A program made the translations under genes and the position numbers. Positions 1 to 58,812 of a stretch of 64,000 nucleotides of DNA are shown here, piece after piece. The DNA comes from Candidatus Poribacteria bacterium (GTDB lineage Bacteria; Poribacteria; WGA-4E; WGA-3G), in NCBI GenBank assembly GCA_009841255.1, contig VXMD01000074.1:1-64000 (forward strand), given 5' to 3'. A model generated the notes under the pieces. The model saw only the letters and a list, made by a program, of their open reading frames with translations, was not told the DNA's origin and ran no database searches. Numbering within the stretch: position 1 is the first letter of the stretch; every line of letters begins with the position of its first letter.

Positions 1-133
1 AAGCTCTTGAAGATATTATACAGATGTATAAGTAATTAATGAATCCACTATATTAGCTTTATTGGTTGACAAGCAAACAAGTCAACCGAGGAAATGGTAT
101 GCTTAGAGAAATATTTATGTGGAGGTCGTAGAC

Positions 134-34792: not shown

Positions 34793-34819
34793 TGGGTTGT
34801 TCGGTCGTCTCTAAAAAAT

Positions 34820-34848
34820 TTGACTTTTGCCTCTCAATGAGGTATAAT
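34820..34848 (+). promoter_or_regulatory. Consensus promoter of the his operon
   Basis: TTGACT (34820-34825) and TATAAT (34843-34848) are separated by 17 nt. The leader from here to the hisZ start is about 430 nt long and carries the attenuator. Confidence 0.85.
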
Positions 34849-34916
34849 ATCATTAAATTGAATTAAAATCACTGATTTTTTAATAGCAGGTTACAACTTG
34901 CGGGCAACATCGGAAA

Positions 34917-34970
34917 ATGTGTAACATTAATACATTTAATATTCATCACCATCATTCGGTCGATTTCTGA
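34917..34970 (+). CDS. His leader peptide with four consecutive His codons
   Basis: ATG at 34917 opens a 17-codon frame: M-C-N-I-N-T-F-N-I-H-H-H-H-S-V-D-F, stop TGA (34968-34970). The codons CAT CAC CAT CAT lie at 34944-34955. It begins 69 nt after the -10 box. The ribosome site is weak (CGGA only), and no other start is in frame before a stop at 34884. In enteric his operons a His-rich leader peptide senses charged tRNA-His; here the downstream genes are hisZ, hisG and hisS. The stop codon lies 2 nt before the proposed antiterminator strand, as attenuation requires. I consider it a leader peptide with no function as a protein. Confidence 0.7.
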   Translation: MCNINTFNIHHHHSVDF

Positions 34971-34972
34971 GT

Positions 34973-35118
34973 AGAGCGGATGAAGGGAAATGAATAAATA
35001 TCTTTAGATACGAAGCAAGTTTAACTTGTTTGGACCCTGGTAAACGAGCCGCTCTCCTCCGTGCCGCGTTGTCGGTGCACGTGAGAAAAAGAGCAAATTG
35101 TTTACTGGGTTTTTTTTT
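34973..35118 (+). promoter_or_regulatory. Histidine transcription attenuator
   Basis: AGAGCGG (34973-34979) can pair with CCGCTCT (35049-35055), giving an antiterminator that also encloses GTTTA/TAAAC (35019-35023 with 35041-35045). Alternatively, CCTGGTAAAC (35036-35045) pairs with GTTTACTGGG (35100-35109) and GCTCT (35051-35055) with AGAGC (35090-35094). That long stem ends exactly before T9 (35110-35118), an intrinsic terminator. The two forms exclude each other. A ribosome at the leader stop would cover 34973-34979 and favour the terminator, while one stalled on the His codons would free it. No T-box consensus was found. Pairings were found by eye and not folded by program. Confidence 0.65.
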
Positions 35119-35289
35119 GATTTTTTTAATCTATAAAGTTTTCGATCCGTTTTTTCCGTTGTCAAAAACGGGTTTCTGCTGAGATCGTGGCAGGATTAAA
35201 AAATTTTAAGTTCTTCGCCTCAAAAATTGAAACTGGCGTTTTACATAACAATAGATGGAGGGTGTATCTTTGGATACATAAATAAAAAA

Positions 35290-36729
35290 ATGGAAACGTT
35301 TGAGAAACCTGCTGGGACGAACGATTTTTTACCTGAGCAGATGGTTCAGCGGAATTTCGTTGAAAATATCGTCCGTGAAACCTTTGAAACCTACGGATAT
35401 GCACAGGTTCAGACCCCCCTGTTTGAATCCTTTGCCCTATTATCGGCACAATCTGGCGAAGAGATCCGGCACAAGATGTTCACGTTCGTCGGTTCGGATC
35501 GGGTGGATTATGCCTTGAGACCTGAGTTGACTGCCCCTGTTTGCAGACTCATCGCCAATGGGGAACTAAAATGCCTTCCTTATCCGCATAAACTCTACTA
35601 CATCGGGCAATGTGTCCGACAGGAACCGATTACCGACGGTGTCGAAGTCCAGCGGGAATTCCGACAGGCTGGTGTTGAACTCATTGGACCGGCTTCCGCC
35701 CAGGCAGACGCTGAAATTATTACGATTCCGATCCGAGTCCTTGAGAAACTCAACGTGTCACATACAAAGTTAAGAATTGGCAATACAGGCGTTTTCCGCG
35801 AGATTTTCAAACAGGGTGCCCTTGATCCGAAAGACCAAGCAGAAATGATCTGGGATATCGACCATCTCGTAAGTCTCCGTAACGAAAGTGAACTGTGGAA
35901 TCTGGAAACGCTGCGAGATGCGCTCAATATGCTGCGTCGTTTGCAAGGACCTGACTATCAAGGTAATCACAAGATTGAAACGACCGCGATTCAGGAATTA
36001 ACCGAGAGCACCGCCTCCGCTTTTGCGGAGAAGTTACCGACGATTGCCGAAGAGACTTACAAGGCGAGATGGCACCGTTATTTCAATGTTTCTGAAGAGA
36101 CAGCGCGGTGTTGTATAGAGGTTTCAAAGGTGTGTGGCGATAAGCACACCGTGATGACAGCATGGGAGGCGCGGCTTGGCGATACTGCACAATCAGCACG
36201 TCAAGAACTGCTTGCCCTCTGTGACTGTTTGGAAAACTACGATATTACAGATTTTGAAATCAATTTGGGTATTACGCGCGGGTTCGATTTCTACACCGGT
36301 ACGGTTTTTCAGATCGAATTACCTGAAAAACATCTACCACTCTGTGGCGGTGGAAGATACGACAACTTGATCGCTTCCTTCGGCGGTCCTTCGATACCCG
36401 GTGCAGGATTTGCGTTTCAATTTGACGCACTTGTAGAAGTCTTTACCGACACGAACAAGGCAACCCCTGTTAATGGGAGAAAAGACTACTTCATTGCAGC
36501 AGAAACCGCTGATGGCATTGCAGAAGCACAACGACTGGCTGAAACGCTGCGGAAAACAGGTAAAAACGTTGAGATAGACTTGATGGAACGGGATCTACAG
36601 GCACAGCAAGATTACGCCATCCAAGCGAACTATGCGTATCTGCTCCGTTTGGTCCCCAATGAACCGATGTATAGAATTCAGATCGAGACGGGTGATACAC
36701 AAATGGTTGCTGTTGAAGATCTTCTGTAA
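35290..36729 (+). CDS. hisZ: ATP phosphoribosyltransferase regulatory subunit (HisZ-type)
   Basis: This 479-aa HisRS paralogue forms the regulatory half of HisG-HisZ. L-R-P-E-L-T-A-P-V-C-R (R77-P78-E79), R110-Q-E-P, R-E-F-R-Q-A-G-V-E-L-I-G, R330-G-F-D-F-Y-T-G and G-G-G-R-Y-D-N-L-I are shared with class II HisRS; the Q-A-G-V-E form is more HisZ-like. Unlike many HisZ, it keeps a C-terminal ~90-residue anticodon-binding-like domain. The position directly before a short-form hisG and a second, canonical hisS argues for HisZ. ATG 35290 is used although a strong GGAGGG at 35257 lies too far away; an in-frame TTG at 35227 has no ribosome site. A second, divergent HisRS is the alternative. Confidence 0.75.
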   Translation: METFEKPAGTNDFLPEQMVQRNFVENIVRETFETYGYAQVQTPLFESFALLSAQSGEEIRHKMFTFVGSDRVDYALRPELTAPVCRLIANGELKCLPYPHKLYYIGQCVRQEPITDGVEVQREFRQAGVELIGPASAQADAEIITIPIRVLEKLNVSHTKLRIGNTGVFREIFKQGALDPKDQAEMIWDIDHLVSLRNESELWNLETLRDALNMLRRLQGPDYQGNHKIETTAIQELTESTASAFAEKLPTIAEETYKARWHRYFNVSEETARCCIEVSKVCGDKHTVMTAWEARLGDTAQSARQELLALCDCLENYDITDFEINLGITRGFDFYTGTVFQIELPEKHLPLCGGGRYDNLIASFGGPSIPGAGFAFQFDALVEVFTDTNKATPVNGRKDYFIAAETADGIAEAQRLAETLRKTGKNVEIDLMERDLQAQQDYAIQANYAYLLRLVPNEPMYRIQIETGDTQMVAVEDLL

Positions 36730-36777: not shown

Positions 36778-37557
36778 ATGCAAACGGAATCACAAAGGAC
36801 GCTGAAACTACTTTTACCGAAAGGGAGTCTACAGACGGATACGCTTGAAATGTTTCAGCGCGCCGGTTACGAGCTTAATGGTTATACCGAAACGGATAGA
36901 TCGTATCGGGCAACTTTCCGTAACGATAGCGAATTTCAGATCAAGGTCTCGCGTCCCCAAGAGATACCGGTCTATGTCGGCATGGACGATTTCTACGATG
37001 TGGGAATTACCGGTCAAGATTGGGTCGAGGAAACTGACGCGAATGTTGAAGAGGTCCTACCTTTGGACTACGGGCACATGGATATCCTTCTTGCTGTCCG
37101 CGAAGAAAGAGACGACATCAATACGTTCGAGGATTTGGTGAATTTCTCCGATAGAGATATCCGCATATCTACCGAATATTTGAACATCGCCGAGAAATAT
37201 ATCCTGAAAAAAACGGAGAATAGGGTCGCACCTGCAATTTTAACACCGTGGAAGCGACTCAATACCCTTGGCAGTTACCAATCGCCTATTACGCTGATGC
37301 TGTCTTTCGGTGCCACTGAAGGGAAACCCCCAGAAGAAGCCGATGCCATCATTGACAATTCGACAGCATCTCGGCGGACAATCAGGGCGAATAACCTCAA
37401 AGTGGTTGAACTATTACGCGAGACTGAATCTTCTCTCATCGCGAATCCGAAGGCACTCAGGGATTCATGGAAACAGGAGAAGATTGAAGAACTGAAGCAG
37501 ACCCTCCAAAAAGGTTTGCGAAGACGGCGGAGTCAAGCACTCCCCGGTCACATCTAA
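36778..37557 (+). CDS. hisG: ATP phosphoribosyltransferase catalytic subunit
   Basis: This 259-aa enzyme catalyses the first step of histidine synthesis, joining ATP and PRPP. L-L-L-P-K-G-S-L, S-R-P-Q-E-I-P-V-Y-V, V-G-I-T-G-Q-D-W-V and A-D-A-I-I-D-N-S-T-A-S-R-R-T are HisG motifs. Long HisG forms (~290-300) carry a C-terminal ACT-like feedback domain, which is missing here. The chain is nevertheless longer than the usual short form (~210), with extra residues in the middle and a basic tail ending R-R-R-R. Lack of the ACT domain predicts dependence on HisZ, encoded 48 bp upstream. AAGGAG precedes the ATG. hisS follows after 12 bp. Expression should be under the attenuator at 34973-35118. Confidence 0.88.
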   Translation: MQTESQRTLKLLLPKGSLQTDTLEMFQRAGYELNGYTETDRSYRATFRNDSEFQIKVSRPQEIPVYVGMDDFYDVGITGQDWVEETDANVEEVLPLDYGHMDILLAVREERDDINTFEDLVNFSDRDIRISTEYLNIAEKYILKKTENRVAPAILTPWKRLNTLGSYQSPITLMLSFGATEGKPPEEADAIIDNSTASRRTIRANNLKVVELLRETESSLIANPKALRDSWKQEKIEELKQTLQKGLRRRRSQALPGHI

Positions 37558-37569
37558 GGAGCGGAACTT

Positions 37570-38904
37570 ATGGCAACCCCTTTTATCAAACCGCGCGTTC
37601 CGCGCGGGATGCGAGATATTTTACCGGAGCAGATGATTCGCAGGCAGTATGTTATAGATGTGGTTCGGGACGTGTTCGAGGAATTTGGGTTTGAACCGTT
37701 GCAAACCCCTGCGCTTGAATTGTCTGAAGTACTCACAGGTAAATACGGACCGGATGCTGAGAAACTCATCTATCAGGCGGGGCACGTGGGCGGAAAAGAG
37801 GACATCTCCCTGCGTTACGACCTATCAGTACCGCTTTGCCGGGTTGTTGCTATGCATCCGCAACTTCCGAAACCGTTTAAGCGATACCAAATTGATCCTG
37901 TCTGGCGCGCAGAACGCCCGCAAAAAGGACGTTACCGTCAATTTTTCCAGTGCGATGCGGATACGGTGGGAACGGAGAGTATGCTCGCGGATGCTGAAAA
38001 TGTGAATCTCATCTATCAGGTACTCACTCGGCTCGGTTTCGAGCAGTTCGAGATTAATATCAACGATCGAAAATTAATCACTGGGATCGGGCAATTCGCT
38101 GGCGTGCCAGATGAACAACTCGGTGGACTCTATCGATCCATTGATAAGTTGGATAAAATTGGACTTTCAGGCGTCAGAGACGAATTAGCGGAAAATCAGA
38201 TTCCGGAACCCGTTATTGAGAAGTTGCTTGCGCTGCTACAAATTGAAGGTGGGACAACGACAGTGCTGAACGCGCTCACTGAACAACTCGGTGCCTCCGA
38301 AGTGGCGAGAGAAGGTATCACGGAATTAGAAGAACTGAATGGCTATCTCGAAACGCTTGGGGTGCCGGACGAATTCTATCGGATTAACGTTTCGATGGTA
38401 CGCGGCTTGGAATACTATACCGGTCCTATCTATGAAACCGTTGTTGAGGAACCGAAAATTGGGAGTATCACCGGCGGCGGGAGATACGATGAACTCATCG
38501 GAAGTTTCAGTAGACAGGGTTACCCAGCAACTGGAACCAGTTTCGGCATTGAACGGATTATTGACGTAATGGAAGAATTTGATATGTTCCCGGCGACTGT
38601 AGGTAAAACGGTGACACAGGTCTTAGTTACTGTTTTCGATGCTGAACTCGCCCAAGAATCCTTGAAATTGGCGACACTTCTGCGTCAAGACGGTATCCGA
38701 ACAGAGGTCTATTGCCGTCCGACGCGTCTCAGCGCACAGATAAAATATGCGGATACGAAAGGTATTCCGTATGCTGTCATCCTGGGTTCTGATGAATTAG
38801 AGGCAGGTAAAGTGGCGATTCGGAATCTCGCAAGCCGAGAGCAACAGATCGTCCCGAGAGCGGAATTTGTTGAACACATCCAAGAATGGATAAATAGGGG
38901 ATGA
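37570..38904 (+). CDS. hisS: Histidyl-tRNA synthetase
   Basis: This 444-aa class II synthetase charges tRNA-His. P-R-V-P-R-G-M-R-D-I-L-P-E-Q starts the catalytic domain. R-Y-D-L-S-V-P-L-C-R, R-Y-Q-I-D-P-V-W-R-A-E-R-P-Q-K-G-R-Y-R-Q-F (motif 2), R-G-L-E-Y-Y-T-G-P (HisA) and G-G-G-R-Y-D-E-L-I-G (HisB) are complete. An anticodon-binding domain closes the chain (V-L-V-T-V-F-D-A, then I-K-Y-A-D). The R-Y-D-L-S/T-V-P form is typical of the archaeal/eukaryotic-like HisRS branch also found in some bacteria. GGAGCGG precedes the ATG. Placing hisS in a his operon under a His leader would let charging levels control synthetase and synthesis together. Confidence 0.93.
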   Translation: MATPFIKPRVPRGMRDILPEQMIRRQYVIDVVRDVFEEFGFEPLQTPALELSEVLTGKYGPDAEKLIYQAGHVGGKEDISLRYDLSVPLCRVVAMHPQLPKPFKRYQIDPVWRAERPQKGRYRQFFQCDADTVGTESMLADAENVNLIYQVLTRLGFEQFEININDRKLITGIGQFAGVPDEQLGGLYRSIDKLDKIGLSGVRDELAENQIPEPVIEKLLALLQIEGGTTTVLNALTEQLGASEVAREGITELEELNGYLETLGVPDEFYRINVSMVRGLEYYTGPIYETVVEEPKIGSITGGGRYDELIGSFSRQGYPATGTSFGIERIIDVMEEFDMFPATVGKTVTQVLVTVFDAELAQESLKLATLLRQDGIRTEVYCRPTRLSAQIKYADTKGIPYAVILGSDELEAGKVAIRNLASREQQIVPRAEFVEHIQEWINRG

Positions 38905-40091
38905 AACAATTTTATCAACGACCTAACTTCACGCGCTACATTGTCCTTCTTTGTTGCATTGTTCAAGCGGTACAACTCACAATCGCGGGGTGTAGTCACA
39001 CAAAGCCGTATTACCATCCTGATATACCCGACAGCGCGAAACATGAAAATAAAATAGAGGGGACGCTCCGGTACCGTCTATTATTACTGGGTGATGGTGG
39101 AGAACCGACATCGGATGAACCTGTCCTAAAAACGCTCACGGAATGGGGGGAGAAGGATGCTTCCAGCACGAGTATTGTTTTTTTAGGGGACAACATGTAT
39201 CCTGAAGGGATGACGGAACGGAAAAAACATGAAGCATCGGCTCGACTTACACCACAACTCGCTGTTGCTAAATCTACGGGTGCCCATGGACTCTTTATAC
39301 CTGGTAACCATGATTGGGCGAGTGGGGGCGCGGAAGGATATAGCGCGTTGCGGGCGCAGGAAGAATTTATTAACAACGCTCTCGTAGGTGAATCGAATTT
39401 TCTGCCATCTGGTGGCTCACCGGGTCCTGTTGCACTTGAACTCCCGAAGACGGATCCGGTTCTACGGCTTATTGTGTTGGATACGCAGTGGTGGCTCCAC
39501 CAACATGAAAAACCGAAAAAAGCCCCTGAACAGGTGATAGAGGAACTCGTCGCACTCTTAGATACGCAATTGCCGGTGATTGTTATCGGACACCATCCGT
39601 TGGAAACGTATGGTGAACATGGTGGTGCCTACGATTGGAAGGCACACCTCTTTCCTTTCAGATCTTGGAAAAAATGGCTCTGGATTCCGGTGCCGATTGT
39701 GGGTTCTGTGTATCCTTGCGGACGATGGTACTTCAGCAGGTCTGACCAGGATCTGAATGGCGCACGCAACAAAAATATGGTAGCGGAGCTAAACCGAGCG
39801 TTTGCTATGCGAAAAATGCCACCGCAAGGTCCACCGCTCTTCGTCTATGTTGCCGGGCATGAACATTCCTTGCAGGTTTTGAAAGGCGGAGTTACCGATT
39901 ATCTTCTCGTGAGTGGGGCGGCGGCGAGCCGAAAAGTGACGGAAGTGATGTCTGGAGACAGTACCTTGTTCGCGCATCAACATACCGGTTTCATGGCGAT
40001 AGATTTTCTCAACGATGGGAAGGTGTTGTTACAAGTGGTCGAACCTGGAGGGAAAGGTGTCCTATTTCACCGATGGTTGACTGTTGACTGA
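38901..40091 (+). CDS. Calcineurin-like metallophosphatase lipoprotein
   Basis: This 396-aa protein overlaps hisS by 4 bp (ATGA). A lipoprotein signal ends in L-T-I-A-G-C (Cys31). The metallophosphatase signature is complete: L-L-G-D-G-G, F-L-G-D-N-M-Y-P-E-G, P-G-N-H-D-W, I-G-H-H-P and A-G-H-E-H. These bind two metals and hydrolyse phosphoesters, probably on the envelope's periplasmic side. The overlap with hisS makes it the fourth gene of the his transcript, which is an unexpected neighbour for histidine enzymes. The substrate is unknown; acid-phosphatase-like activity is likely. Confidence 0.88.
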   Translation: MKQFYQRPNFTRYIVLLCCIVQAVQLTIAGCSHTKPYYHPDIPDSAKHENKIEGTLRYRLLLLGDGGEPTSDEPVLKTLTEWGEKDASSTSIVFLGDNMYPEGMTERKKHEASARLTPQLAVAKSTGAHGLFIPGNHDWASGGAEGYSALRAQEEFINNALVGESNFLPSGGSPGPVALELPKTDPVLRLIVLDTQWWLHQHEKPKKAPEQVIEELVALLDTQLPVIVIGHHPLETYGEHGGAYDWKAHLFPFRSWKKWLWIPVPIVGSVYPCGRWYFSRSDQDLNGARNKNMVAELNRAFAMRKMPPQGPPLFVYVAGHEHSLQVLKGGVTDYLLVSGAAASRKVTEVMSGDSTLFAHQHTGFMAIDFLNDGKVLLQVVEPGGKGVLFHRWLTVD

Positions 40092-41795: not shown

Positions 41796-42322
41796 ATTAA
41801 AAACTCCTTGTGCCTAATATAAAGTTGGTAAAGTAGAAACTAACTTACGTTCCCTGTGATTTAAGCAAGTTCTATGCCAATGCACTTTATGAAACGCAAT
41901 AATTACCTCAAACCAATACTGAGATTCCAACCATCTTTTCATTAAATACCTCTGGAACACAGGCAGATATTAGATTTATCAAAATGAATCAAAGCGTTAT
42001 CTTCCGTAAAAAAAATATTCTTATCGAGGTCGTAGAATTCATTTGCAACCCTCCTGTTATTACCAACACACAAAAAATGTAGTATAAGGCACAAAAGGTG
42101 ATGCATTCAGGGATTTTGTGCGTCAGCATTTTTTGATGCATTCAGGGATTTTGTGCATCGGAATTTCTTCTGATCTGAGCGTTGGAAATTTGAAATCAGA
42201 GGGTATTCAGACAATCTTTACATCGAACTCACATTATTAGTGCTATAGTATTTAAAACGAAGCCAAATCCTGATGGTTTCTTAATCGCTCCCAAGTATCA
42301 CACCAGAAAGAAGCGATCTACG
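41796..42322. other. Gene-free region upstream of the recombinase
   Basis: No ORF could be supported. The region is AT-rich, with the direct repeats at 42099-42156 as the only clear structure. It ends at the stop of holA. Confidence 0.6.
42099..42156. repeat. 23-bp direct repeat, two copies, spacing 35
   Basis: The 23-nt unit from TGATGCATTC to TTTTGTGC occurs at 42099-42121 and again exactly at 42134-42156, with 12 nt between. The second copy is also enclosed by GATGCA/TGCATC (42135-42140 and 42154-42159). It lies 300 nt upstream of the recombinase start and could be recombinase arm or core sites. Confidence 0.75.
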
Positions 42323-48672: not shown

Positions 48673-49851
48673 CTATGACTGGTAGCCGCCTGTATTAAAA
48701 AGCACAACACGCTCGGAGTCTTGAATCATTCCATTCGCGACGAGTTGTTTGAGTGCCGCGACAGTTGCGGCTCCTTCGGGGCATGTCAAAAGGCCTTCGG
48801 TTGTAGGGAGCAGTTGCATCGCTTCACGGATGGCATCGTCCGTGACAGCAATCGCGGCGCCGTTGCTTTTACGAATCGCCTCTAAAATGAGGAAATCTCC
48901 GATTGCTTGTGGTACGCGCAAACCGCTCGCAACGGTATGTGCATCACGCCACGGTGTTGCTTCGGTAGCCCCTTCTTCCCACGCTCTAACAATCGGTGCA
49001 CATCCTGCTGACTGGACAGAGATGAACCGTGGTCTTTTCTTGCCGATCCAACCGATTGTTTCTAATTCCGCGAAACCTTTCCACATTCCGACGATACCTG
49101 TGCCACCGCCGGTGGGATAGATGATAACATCTGGTAATTCCCATCCGCACTGCTCGGCGAGTTCAAATCCCATCGTTTTTTTTCCCTCCACGCGGTAGGG
49201 TTCTTTAAGCGTTGACACATCAAACCATCCTTCCTGTTCTTTCCGTTCTGCGACAATTCTGCCTGCGTCTGTGATGAGACCGTCAATCAGTGTGACGTTT
49301 GCACCGGCGAGTTGACACGTCTCCTTATTGAAAGGAGGGGTATCCTGTGGCATGAAGATGTGTGCTGATATACCTGCGGCAGCGGCGTAAACTGAGAGGG
49401 CAGTCGCGGCGTTACCAGCGGAAGGGATCGCTAATTGCGTCAATCCGAGTGCCTTTGCCTTGGAGACTGCCATTGCCAAACCACGCGCCTTGAAGCTTCC
49501 AGTAGGTAACCGAGATTCGTCCTTCACCCATACCTGTGTGAGTCCGAACGTGGTTCCCAACCTTTTTGCATGGACGAGGGGTGTCATCGTTTCGCCAAGG
49601 GTTACGATGTCGGCTGGGTTAGAGATAGGTAGGAGTTCCGAATAACGCCAGAGTGAGGCAGGTCTCGACTGGAGCGTGTCACGCGTCCATGTTTCCGCTA
49701 CCTGTTCAAGAGCGTAGCGGGCAAGTAGCGGTTTTCCACAACTGGTACAGACGTTCTGCGGTGTGAGGTGGTCATAGGTTTCACTACATTTACTGCATTC
49801 AAGTTTTTTTAACGTTCCTTGCGGTTCGGTCAGGTGGGTTTGAACTTTCAT
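48673..49851 (-). CDS. thrC: Threonine synthase
   Basis: This 392-aa PLP enzyme converts O-phosphohomoserine to threonine. An N-terminal zinc-ribbon-like segment (L-E-C-S-K-C-S-E, C-T-S-C-G-K) precedes the PLP fold. T-G-S-F-K-A-R-G (PLP Lys), P-S-A-G-N-A-A-T-A-L, Y-P-T-G-G-G-T-G-I-V-G-M (phosphate loop), T-C-P-E-G-A-A-T and F-N-T-G-G-Y complete it. GGAGAGG precedes the ATG. The start region and its upstream hairpin are duplicated at 49946-50026. The next gene upstream is an ornithine-carbamoyltransferase-family gene on the same strand. The end is about 30 bp from the convergent unknown secreted gene. Confidence 0.9.
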   Translation of the reverse strand: MKVQTHLTEPQGTLKKLECSKCSETYDHLTPQNVCTSCGKPLLARYALEQVAETWTRDTLQSRPASLWRYSELLPISNPADIVTLGETMTPLVHAKRLGTTFGLTQVWVKDESRLPTGSFKARGLAMAVSKAKALGLTQLAIPSAGNAATALSVYAAAAGISAHIFMPQDTPPFNKETCQLAGANVTLIDGLITDAGRIVAERKEQEGWFDVSTLKEPYRVEGKKTMGFELAEQCGWELPDVIIYPTGGGTGIVGMWKGFAELETIGWIGKKRPRFISVQSAGCAPIVRAWEEGATEATPWRDAHTVASGLRVPQAIGDFLILEAIRKSNGAAIAVTDDAIREAMQLLPTTEGLLTCPEGAATVAALKQLVANGMIQDSERVVLFNTGGYQS

Positions 49852-50026
49852 CTGCCTCTCCGTAGACTCGCCTGCGCCGATGTTGCAGGCTACGCGATTT
49901 GGATTTAACGAAAACCTCTGGACTGACGACTGATAACTCTAATTGTCCTTGCGGTTCGGTCAGGTGGGTTCGAGTTTTCATGTCTCTTTCCGTAGACTCG
50001 CCCGGCGCGATGCTTGGGCTTACGCG
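49816..50026. repeat. Duplicated thrC 5' end with hairpin leader (2 x 81 bp)
   Basis: Positions 49816-49896 and 49946-50026 are imperfect direct repeats of 81 nt. Read on the minus strand each holds a hairpin (GCCTGC/GCAGGC in one, GCCC/GGGC in the other), a ribosome site, an ATG and codons for M-K-x-x-T-H-L-T-E-P-Q-G. The copy nearer argF opens a 60-codon frame (49981 to 49799) that is out of phase with thrC. It looks like a partial tandem duplication. Confidence 0.8.
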
Positions 50027-50042
50027 CTCTGAAGGCTGTGGC

Positions 50043-56254: not shown

Positions 56255-56269
56255 ATCTGGGAGAGGTTT

Positions 56270-57319
56270 ATGAGCACATCAAAACAATTTTCACGTCGAA
56301 CATTTTTACGCGGTTTAGGGGTCAGTGCCGCTTTACCTTGGTTGGAAGCGATACGTCCTTTGACTGCCTGGGCAGATATTCCAACAAAAGAGGGACCGAT
56401 TACCCGTTATCCGGATCCAGCGGTTGAAGTCATTGATCCGCGCTTCGCCACATACAAAATTGGCAACGCCGTTGTGGAACGGTTATGGACGGGATCGCGC
56501 TGGGCAGAGGGACCTGTTTGGTTCGGTGATGGGGGTTACCTCCTCTGGAGTGATATTCCAAACAACTGTATTCTGAAATGGCAGGAAGCCACTGGGGCTG
56601 TGAGTGTCTATCGCAAACCCGCTAACTACACCAATGGACACACGCGCGACCGGCACGGCAGGCTCATCAGTTGTGAACACGGGACCCGGCGTGTCACACG
56701 AACCGAGTATGACGGAACGATTACTATCCTCATAGACAGGTTTGAGGGCAAACGCTTCAACGCACCGAACGATGCCGCTGTCCATCCTGACGGACATATC
56801 TGGTTCACTGACCCGGGATACGGTATCCTTTCCCATTATGAAGGGCATAAAGCAGAATTTGAATTGCCAACTTCCGTTTATCGCCTGAATCCAGACACTG
56901 GCGAAGCAATCGTTGTAACGGAGGAAATCGAAAGACCGAACGGTATCTGTTTTTCACCCGATTACAATAAACTTTACGTTGCGGATACGGGTCCACCGAA
57001 AAACATTGTTGTCTATGATGTCCTTAACAGTGAACGGTTGGCGAACAAACAGGTATTCGCGGATATGGCACCCGGTGCGGCTGATGGTCTGCGGTGTGAT
57101 ACCGATGGGAACCTCTGGGCAGGTGCTGGTTGGGTTGGTGAGGGCTACGACGGTGTGCATATCTTCGCGCCAGATGGGACGCTTATCGGAAAGATTCATC
57201 TTCCGGAAATTTGTGCAAATATCTGTTTCGGCGGCGTGAAACGAAACAGGCTCTTTATGACAGGGAGCCAATCTCTTTATTCAGTTTATGTGAATGCACA
57301 AGGGGTCCCCTACTTTTAA
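56270..57319 (+). CDS. Tat-exported SMP-30/gluconolactonase-like protein
   Basis: This 349-aa protein has a Tat signal S-R-R-T-F-L-R-G-L near residue 8, then a six-bladed SMP-30/gluconolactonase propeller: W-A-E-G-P-V-W-F (metal Glu), N-G-H-T-R-D-R-H-G-R-L, N-A-P-N-D-A-A-V-H-P-D-G-H-I-W-F-T-D and A-D-G-L-R-C-D. These carry the usual metal ligands. It would hydrolyse a lactone in the periplasm. The first ~35 codons are almost the same as those of the DUF1552 gene at 57463 in DNA as well as protein, although the mature domains are unrelated. GGGAGAGG precedes the ATG. Confidence 0.88.
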   Translation: MSTSKQFSRRTFLRGLGVSAALPWLEAIRPLTAWADIPTKEGPITRYPDPAVEVIDPRFATYKIGNAVVERLWTGSRWAEGPVWFGDGGYLLWSDIPNNCILKWQEATGAVSVYRKPANYTNGHTRDRHGRLISCEHGTRRVTRTEYDGTITILIDRFEGKRFNAPNDAAVHPDGHIWFTDPGYGILSHYEGHKAEFELPTSVYRLNPDTGEAIVVTEEIERPNGICFSPDYNKLYVADTGPPKNIVVYDVLNSERLANKQVFADMAPGAADGLRCDTDGNLWAGAGWVGEGYDGVHIFAPDGTLIGKIHLPEICANICFGGVKRNRLFMTGSQSLYSVYVNAQGVPYF

Positions 57320-57336
57320 ACGGGTGCTATAAACAT

Positions 57337-57365
57337 TTGACAAGCCGAAAAAAATAGGGTATAAT
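57337..57365 (+). promoter_or_regulatory. Perfect-consensus sigma70 promoter of the DUF1552 gene
   Basis: TTGACA (57337-57342) and TATAAT (57360-57365) are spaced by 17 nt, the ideal arrangement. It lies about 100 nt before the DUF1552 ATG, giving it independent expression. Confidence 0.9.
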
Positions 57366-57462
57366 TGTGTTATAGGCGTTATGAACGAGAAATCGGACGG
57401 TGACAGCAGAGGCTTTTCGCAAGTTTTCCGCTGCTTTAACTGTAGGGAGTTGACGAAGGATT

Positions 57463-58812
57463 ATGAGCACTTCAAAACAACTTTCACGTCGAACATTTTT
57501 ACGCGGTTTGGGAGTGAGTGTCGCACTACCGTGGCTGGAAGTGATGGGACCCCTTACATCGTGGGCAAACGCTCCCGCGAGTGGGGTGGCACACCAGACG
57601 GCTCCGAATCGGATGGCGTTCCTTTACGTGCCTAACGGAAAGATTATGGAGGACTGGATACCAAGTCAAATAGGTGCTGACTACGGACTCCCAGAAATCC
57701 TGAAACCGTTAGAAAGTGTAAAGGACAAAATGTTGGTACTAAGCGGTCTAACGGCTGATAAAGCGCGCCACAACGGCGATGGCGGTGGCGATCACGCGCG
57801 GGCAATGTCGGCGTTCCTCACTGGCGCCCAACCCCGTAAGACGGATGGCGCCAACATTCAGGCGGGAATTTCAGTCGATCAGGCAGCCGCTATGCGTATC
57901 GGAAACCGAACCCGCTTGCCTTCCTTAGAACTCGGAATTGATCCGGGGAGAAGGTCCGGAAATTGCGACTCCGGTTACAGCTGTGTCTATTCATCATCTC
58001 TCTCGTGGCGTTCTGCTACACAGCCGCTTCCCAATGAAATCAACCCAAAAGCCGCTTTTGAACGACTGTTCTCCTCTTTACCCGACACACAACGAGAAGC
58101 ACGCGATCAACAACGAAAAAGTATTCTCGATTTTGTAAGACAGGACTCAAAAGATTTACTTCATCGGGTCAGCGGGAACGATGTCCGGAAACTCGATGAG
58201 TATTTCTCCTCTATCCGTGATATTGAAGTGAGAATCGCATCGGCTGAAAAGTTTCCACCGATCGAGAGCCCGGACTATACCGTGCCCGAGGAAATTCCAG
58301 CAGACTACCAAGAACATCTGCGTCTGATGATGGACCTCATGGTACTCGCATTCCAGGCGGATGTAACCCGCGTTACGACCTTCGTCCTCGCAAATGAAGG
58401 AAGCAATAAACCCTATCCCTTCGTTGATGTTCCAGATGGACACCACTACCTGTCACATCACGGGGGTGATGAAGAGAAGATAGAAAAAATCAAACGCATT
58501 GATATTTTTCATTCTCAACAGTTGGCATACTTCTTGGAAAAATTCGACGCTACCCCTGAAGGAGAGGGTTCGCTCTTGGAGCATTCGATGATTCTGTACG
58601 GTAGCGGGAATGCAGATGGCAACCGACACAGTCACCACGATCTCCCGATTCTACTCGCTGGAAACGGTTGTGGCACGATCAAAAGTGGTCGTCATATCCG
58701 TTATCCGAAAGAGACGCCGCTTAACAATCTCTGGCTATCCATGCTCAATCGGATGGATGTGGATCTTGCCCAATTAGGCGATAGTACTGGTAGTTTACAG
58801 GGACTCGCTTAG
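57463..58812 (+). CDS. DUF1552 Tat-exported protein
   Basis: This 449-aa protein has a Tat leader (S-R-R-T-F-L-R-G-L-G-V-S-V-A-L-P-W-L-E) and family blocks R-M-A-F-L-Y-V-P-N-G, L-S-G-L-T-A-D-K-A-R, G-D-G-G-G-D-H-A-R-A-M-S-A-F-L-T-G, S-V-D-Q-A-A-A, S-L-E-L-G-I-D and C-D-S-G-Y-S-C-V-Y-S. DUF1552 proteins of Planctomycetes and relatives are usually encoded next to DUF1592 proteins and may act with them in the periplasm; the reaction is not known. Its own promoter is upstream, and a strong terminator-like stem lies downstream. GAAGGA precedes the ATG. Confidence 0.92.
   Translation: MSTSKQLSRRTFLRGLGVSVALPWLEVMGPLTSWANAPASGVAHQTAPNRMAFLYVPNGKIMEDWIPSQIGADYGLPEILKPLESVKDKMLVLSGLTADKARHNGDGGGDHARAMSAFLTGAQPRKTDGANIQAGISVDQAAAMRIGNRTRLPSLELGIDPGRRSGNCDSGYSCVYSSSLSWRSATQPLPNEINPKAAFERLFSSLPDTQREARDQQRKSILDFVRQDSKDLLHRVSGNDVRKLDEYFSSIRDIEVRIASAEKFPPIESPDYTVPEEIPADYQEHLRLMMDLMVLAFQADVTRVTTFVLANEGSNKPYPFVDVPDGHHYLSHHGGDEEKIEKIKRIDIFHSQQLAYFLEKFDATPEGEGSLLEHSMILYGSGNADGNRHSHHDLPILLAGNGCGTIKSGRHIRYPKETPLNNLWLSMLNRMDVDLAQLGDSTGSLQGLA

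Follow-up and report, generated by a model that had tools for sequence, protein, structure and literature searches.

A probable histidine-codon attenuator preceding hisZ-hisG-hisS in Poribacteria

The window, i.e., the whole stretch of 64,000 nucleotides that was analysed, belongs to a genome (G000) of the Poribacteria, a candidate phylum whose members of this kind are sponge symbionts. Its forward strand carries a group of histidine-related genes and, ahead of them, a leader with the following features:

34820 to 34848, + strand: sigma-70-type promoter TTGACT-17-TATAAT (-35 TTGACT, 17-nt spacer, -10 TATAAT), agreeing with the consensus at 11 of 12 positions
34917 to 34970, + strand: leader ORF of 17 codons plus TGA (ATG at 34917, TGA at 34968 to 34970), peptide MCNINTFNIHHHHSVDF
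34944 to 34955, + strand: regulatory His codons CAT CAC CAT CAT
34952 to 34958, + strand: 5' strand (UCAUUCG) of the 1:2 (pause) stem, from folding
34977 to 34983, + strand: 3' strand (CGGAUGA) of the 1:2 stem, from folding; longer and covarying in the sister genera
34973 to 34979, + strand: antiterminator 5' strand AGAGCGG (region 2)
35036 to 35045, + strand: terminator stem 5' strand CCTGGTAAAC
35049 to 35055, + strand: antiterminator 3' strand CCGCTCT (region 3), also within the upper terminator arm
35100 to 35109, + strand: terminator stem 3' strand GTTTACTGGG, from folding and alignment
35110 to 35118, + strand: T9 tract of the intrinsic terminator, directly after GTTTACTGGG
35290 to 36729, + strand: predicted hisZ, ATP phosphoribosyltransferase regulatory subunit (ATG at 35290)
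36778 to 37557, + strand: hisG, short form, 259 aa (TIGR00070 above cut-off; PF01634)
37570 to 38904, + strand: hisS, histidyl-tRNA synthetase (HisRS; TIGR00442 with 397.9 bits, cut-off 286.75)
38901 to 40091, + strand: metallophosphoesterase (PF00149), probable lipoprotein (lipobox-like LTIAGC by eye), overlapping hisS by 4 nt

The product of the first gene is HisRS-like, stays below the cut-off with the TIGR00442 as well as the TIGR00443 model, and matches a mixture of HisRS and HisZ chains in the PDB; an anticodon-binding domain was not matched in this protein. Its neighbourhood to a short-form hisG and the missing anticodon domain suggest its assignment as hisZ. A second hisS is not listed in genome G000, where hisS is the sole HisRS-like place listed besides hisZ. 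The three genes, whose products make or charge histidine, the amino acid of the leader codons, are contiguous in 52 of the 54 loci that show both hisZ and hisG (33/34 in the genus of the window, 19/20 in the sister genera), the exceptions being L016, with hisS on another contig, and L102, located at a contig end. In case of the latter (L102:1137-2399, G060:C68), hisZ was matched in two pieces, leaving query residues 195-254 unmatched in a stop-free open frame, and the encoded HisZ may be either shortened or divergent in its middle part.

The original prediction had included hisS and a phosphatase gene in the unit. This contiguity supports the membership of hisS, but not that of the phosphatase gene, which is located at most 100 nt away from hisS in 26/33 loci of the genus and 3/19 of the sister genera and is a loosely linked passenger, no stable member of the unit. 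A function as histidinol phosphatase was set aside because of the lipobox-like N-terminus, recognized by eye, and the unstable linkage to hisS.

In the leader itself, a consensus promoter, a 17-codon ORF with four His codons ending 2 nt before AGAGCGG, the pairing of this strand with CCGCTCT and a competing stem directly against T9 had been proposed, and all of these elements were recovered. AGAGCGG begins 2 nt past the leader stop and is complementary to CCGCTCT, while CCTGGTAAAC is complementary to GTTTACTGGG with two G-U pairs included, placing an intrinsic terminator ahead of hisZ, the first gene of the unit. The window leader folds with -80.6 kcal/mol (z -5.07 versus 200 shuffles) and its terminator segment with -44 kcal/mol (z -3.29). 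This terminator is absent from the list of a simple scan due to the loop limit of 8 nt used there; folding does find it. A clear Shine-Dalgarno sequence ahead of the leader ORF was not apparent by eye. Counting both strands, the 5.73-Mb genome contains 33 runs of four CAY codons, and the chance of finding one in a given 400 nt of one strand is about 0.1 %; a chance origin of the leader is ruled out by its conservation among relatives.

Between terminator and hisZ, a dispersed, MITE- or REP-like repeat of about 50-65 nt is located at 35115-35180, which recurs in many copies with about 75-100 % identity in G000 as well as in other members of the genus. Direct-repeat pairs of 35-111 nt (78-89 % identity) are found in the window at 42099-42168, 49816-50031 and 56264-57567.

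At the DNA level, the leader region was matched in 34 of the 60 genomes searched (G000 itself included), all of the same genus; the match in G032 is weak (1.8e-5) and probably represents only the dispersed repeat. Protein search detected hisZ in 35 genomes of the genus and in 20 genomes of two sister genera in the family. An ATG-started leader with three to four consecutive His codons is present in 53 of these 55 family genomes with hisZ. In the remaining two (L038 in G029, L086 in G065), contig ends fall between the His codons and AGAGCGG, and the surviving remainder matches the rest of the element. Two further genomes of the genus (G023, G032) have no HisZ or HisRS match whatsoever, suggesting that the region is probably missing from these assemblies. 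Leader and hisZ are split over two contigs in G026 (L035, L044), and the contig of G024 begins just ahead of hisG. Two different his leaders are present in G025 (L033 on G025:C17, L034 on G025:C200), a genome with 6 % contamination, and probably stem from two strains binned together. A scan of named genomes yielded 50 loci, 49 from Poribacteria and one from a deltaproteobacterial MAG.

Leader conservation was assessed with an alignment (A2) of 55 leaders: 53 from genomes with hisZ, L034 as second contig of G025, and the chromosome locus L151. The loci were picked by a pattern containing a His-codon run and a T-run, both features being partly a selection criterion there, and the unbiased measure of leader presence is the above genome tally (53/55). 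All 55 loci, from three genera, possess an ATG-started counterpart ORF with three to four consecutive His codons, in which changes are confined to third positions and are all synonymous. Five His residues per leader peptide are found in 34 cases, four in 20 and three in one. The run is usually followed by S/P-V/I-H; the rest of the peptide, including its 5' part, drifts, and three loci (L022, L040, L103) have a 3-nt deletion in frame. The leaders end with TGA (43), TAA (10) or TAG (2), and 49 of them have 2 nt between stop codon and AGAGCGG, while three have 1 nt; the gap is -2 for two others and -25 for L041. A promoter motif TTGAC(A/T)-16..18-TATAAT precedes 51/55 aligned loci, with L021, L025, L041 (upstream cut by contig end) and L088 as misses. 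A T-run of at least 5 occurs in all 55 leaders, most of which had been selected with a pattern demanding this feature.

The original prediction had been made dependent on relatives keeping the His codons and the paired strands, and on a terminator stem forming at realistic energies. In the relatives, the His codons as well as the two sets of pairing strands are indeed retained, with modest covariation, and each of the 55 leaders folds into a terminator arm with an energy between -24 and -42 kcal/mol. Computed on the 54 distinct sequences of A2, 98.9 % of the terminator cells and 97.6 % of the antiterminator cells are paired, and the whole structure is paired to 92.2 % versus 34-43 % in slid controls. 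A 3-pair extension of the sister genera reaches only 57.4 % overall, since the window's genus lacks it. Terminator and antiterminator together display 3 cells with double changes (reached by 134/500 shuffles) and 3 pairs with double changes (54/500), whereas their percentage paired was reached by 78/500 and their covariation score by 4/500 shuffles; their covariation is weak. RNAalifold unaided draws the terminator, with 2 pairs showing double changes. In the sister genera, the 1:2 stem takes the His codons as its 5' strand and is 96.1 % paired in 20 sequences, with 3 cells with double changes versus 0.4 in shuffles, a covariation score reached by 1/500 and double-change pairs by 25/500 shuffles; a U-A to C-G change at a His-codon wobble base is among these pairs. 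The 1:2 stem in the register of the window shows zero covariation.

The helix AGAGCGG:CCGCTCT and the base stem of the terminator have no bases in common. In 54/55 leaders, however, most of CCGCTCT takes part in pairs of the upper terminator arm, and therefore the two states compete. According to the folding model, exclusion between antiterminator and terminator would rest on this upper arm together with topology, i.e., be partly topological, and a pseudoknot joining antiterminator and terminator base stem is compatible with the model.

The effect of ribosome position was modelled with a 31-nt block of assumed size (-15 to +15 around the first base of the P-site), and the antiterminator probability was taken before the last terminator strand is made. 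When the A-site holds the last His codon, this probability exceeds 0.5 in 48/55 leaders; the corresponding count is 47/55 for the first His codon, 0/55 for the stop codon and 7/55 without ribosome. The terminator exceeds 0.5 in 54/55 leaders, both without ribosome and with the ribosome at the stop. For the window, antiterminator probabilities are 0.99-1.00 for A-site positions 34941-34959, 0.58 at 34962 and 0 from 34965 onwards; the permissive zone therefore includes the four His codons and excludes the stop codon. Thus, the geometry of ribosome-position attenuation, which had been read from the letters of the leader, holds in this model for the window and 48/55 leaders, with a mutually exclusive antiterminator predicted to form on stalling and to be blocked at the stop codon. 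Among the seven exceptions (L014, L018, L027, L036, L089, L092, L095), six do not form the antiterminator on stalling, and L092 forms neither structure. In the full-length window RNA at equilibrium the terminator always wins, even if a ribosome occupies the His codons, and among the full-length RNAs of all leaders, 14/55 reach an antiterminator above 0.5 when the last His codon is in the A-site. Since the terminator is favoured at equilibrium, the switch would have to act mostly by the antiterminator forming first, i.e., kinetically.

Taken together with this computed dependence on the ribosome footprint, the parts of the leader and their conservation make it very probable that a ribosome-mediated transcription attenuator sensing the charging of tRNA-His controls hisZ-hisG-hisS. 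RNA polymerase would start at the promoter at 34820-34848, and a ribosome would translate the leader. With ample His-tRNA, the ribosome at the stop codon would cover AGAGCGG and leave CCGCTCT free, such that the terminator arm ending with GTTTACTGGG-T9 could form and transcription would halt before hisZ. If His-tRNA is scarce, owing to little histidine or little HisRS, the ribosome would stall on the four His codons and break the 1:2 stem that would otherwise hold CGGAUGA; AGAGCGG could then pair with CCGCTCT before the last terminator strand exists, and this kinetically trapped antiterminator would let the polymerase read on. In case of no translation, the 1:2 stem would leave the terminator on. 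The preference for the terminator at equilibrium, the seven exceptions to the model, the weak covariation, the lack of bases shared by antiterminator and terminator base stem and the absence of a clear Shine-Dalgarno sequence count against this mechanism, as do two loci: in G006 (L016) hisS stands apart without such a leader, and in L041 the usual stop codon is replaced by TGG.

The leader is a long structured RNA, as would also be expected of a T-box, and T-boxes govern hisS and his genes in Firmicutes (PMC9413887, PMC2965389). Nevertheless, it is very unlikely that the terminator is directly controlled by a T-box or other RNA binding uncharged tRNA-His or a different ligand, with the His codons being incidental. 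Neither a T-box nor another Rfam family matched the window at gathering threshold; up to E 10, only unrelated families far below their gathering scores appeared for 34800-35300, four further loci gave no match of interest, and the His run stays in frame with start and stop codons. The drifting 5' part of the leader peptide, the 170 nt between terminator and hisZ in the window and the basal expression needed for an essential hisS would conform to a His-rich small protein or a simple upstream ORF followed by an ordinary terminator that belongs to another transcript, hisZ being expressed from a different site. An ordinary terminator, however, needs neither the 1-2 nt spacing between stop codon and antiterminator (52/55) nor a near invariant antiterminator strand, and the scan of the window listed no promoter-like site on the + strand from the T-run to hisS, rendering this arrangement slightly more improbable still. 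The least probable explanation is protein-dependent control, in which, e.g., HisZ or HisRS would determine termination by binding to the leader RNA. Both are tRNA-synthetase-like proteins encoded just downstream of the leader, and autogenous control by a synthetase is known from E. coli thrS; such control would make the in-frame His run and the stop-codon spacing unnecessary, and Rfam recognized no described RNA family in the leader.

The attenuator favoured here shares with the his attenuator of E. coli and Salmonella a short leader peptide containing a run of His codons, alternative pairing, a terminator and the proposed control by tRNA-His charging, but would govern hisZ-hisG-hisS instead of a full his operon. 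The his leader of E. coli and Salmonella has seven consecutive His codons, as compared to three to four in this Poribacteria family, and the Rfam His_leader covariance model (RF00514) did not match the window leader. Synthetase genes under ribosome-mediated attenuation by their own amino acid are represented by E. coli pheST, which differs in its Phe codons, its genes (pheS-pheT) and the lack of biosynthetic genes. His-codon leader ORFs are described in attenuators before hisZ and a hisS paralogue of Bacilli (PMC2965389). The Poribacteria leader likewise has a His-codon ORF in a probable attenuator, but belongs to another phylum and precedes hisZ, hisG and the only hisS seen. His-leader attenuators with terminator, antiterminator and three to five consecutive His codons are likewise reported for three Firmicutes lineages (B. 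cereus group, Peptostreptococcaceae and Erysipelotrichales), where they control his operons and transporters; the available text does not mention hisS (PMC9413887).

The unit had been considered notable for its inclusion of hisS and a phosphatase gene in a phylum in which attenuation is little studied. An earlier report for this phylum was not found, but the mechanism itself is of a known kind, including His leaders before hisZ (PMC2965389). The literature search combined Poribacteria with attenuation or leader peptide and gave nothing on the subject by title or beginning of abstract, a statement that extends to this search only. The unit is of interest for its occurrence in a new phylum, for containing the only hisS that was found, and because no such leaders precede hisD, hisA/hisF or the long hisG of other families. 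Leader-peptide attenuation, conserved over three genera, would be extended to this candidate phylum, with biosynthesis and charging of one amino acid placed under one sensor. A covariance model could be built directly from the 55 aligned leaders.

Of 84 Poribacteria genomes, 80 gave a HisG match. Outside the family, its open frames mostly comprise 292-343 aa (long form), with one of 408 aa and contig-end fragments in G048. In 23 scanned loci of other families (one of them, L168, was read in the wrong frame and does not count), no run of at least three His residues was present directly upstream of long-form hisG; isolated HH occur in longer ORFs of L175, L182 and L187. Within 600 nt upstream of hisD and hisA/hisF in six family genomes, no ORF resembling the hisZ leader was detected; short ORFs with HH or H.H.H are located there in L199, L203, L204, L205 and L211, with no longer His run. 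Leaders with Trp or Leu codons before trpE and leuA were searched as well, none being convincing.

One may speculate, at somewhat less than an even chance, that the switch primarily serves as a homeostat for tRNA-His charging. One leader would govern both the HisG-HisZ committed step and the only HisRS, shortage of either histidine or HisRS would raise both, and the other his genes are without such a leader. According to the same proposal, the family would have acquired the unit and short-form HisG jointly, given that a long HisG lacking a His leader is found in the other Poribacteria tested. In the deltaproteobacterial MAG (L165), which encodes HisZ and HisG with 39 and 44 % identity, respectively, a His-rich short ORF (MVGLKLHGHVHHGYITAGP, start codon guessed) followed by a hairpin and T6 precedes hisZ-hisG at L165:2848-3000 as a single case.
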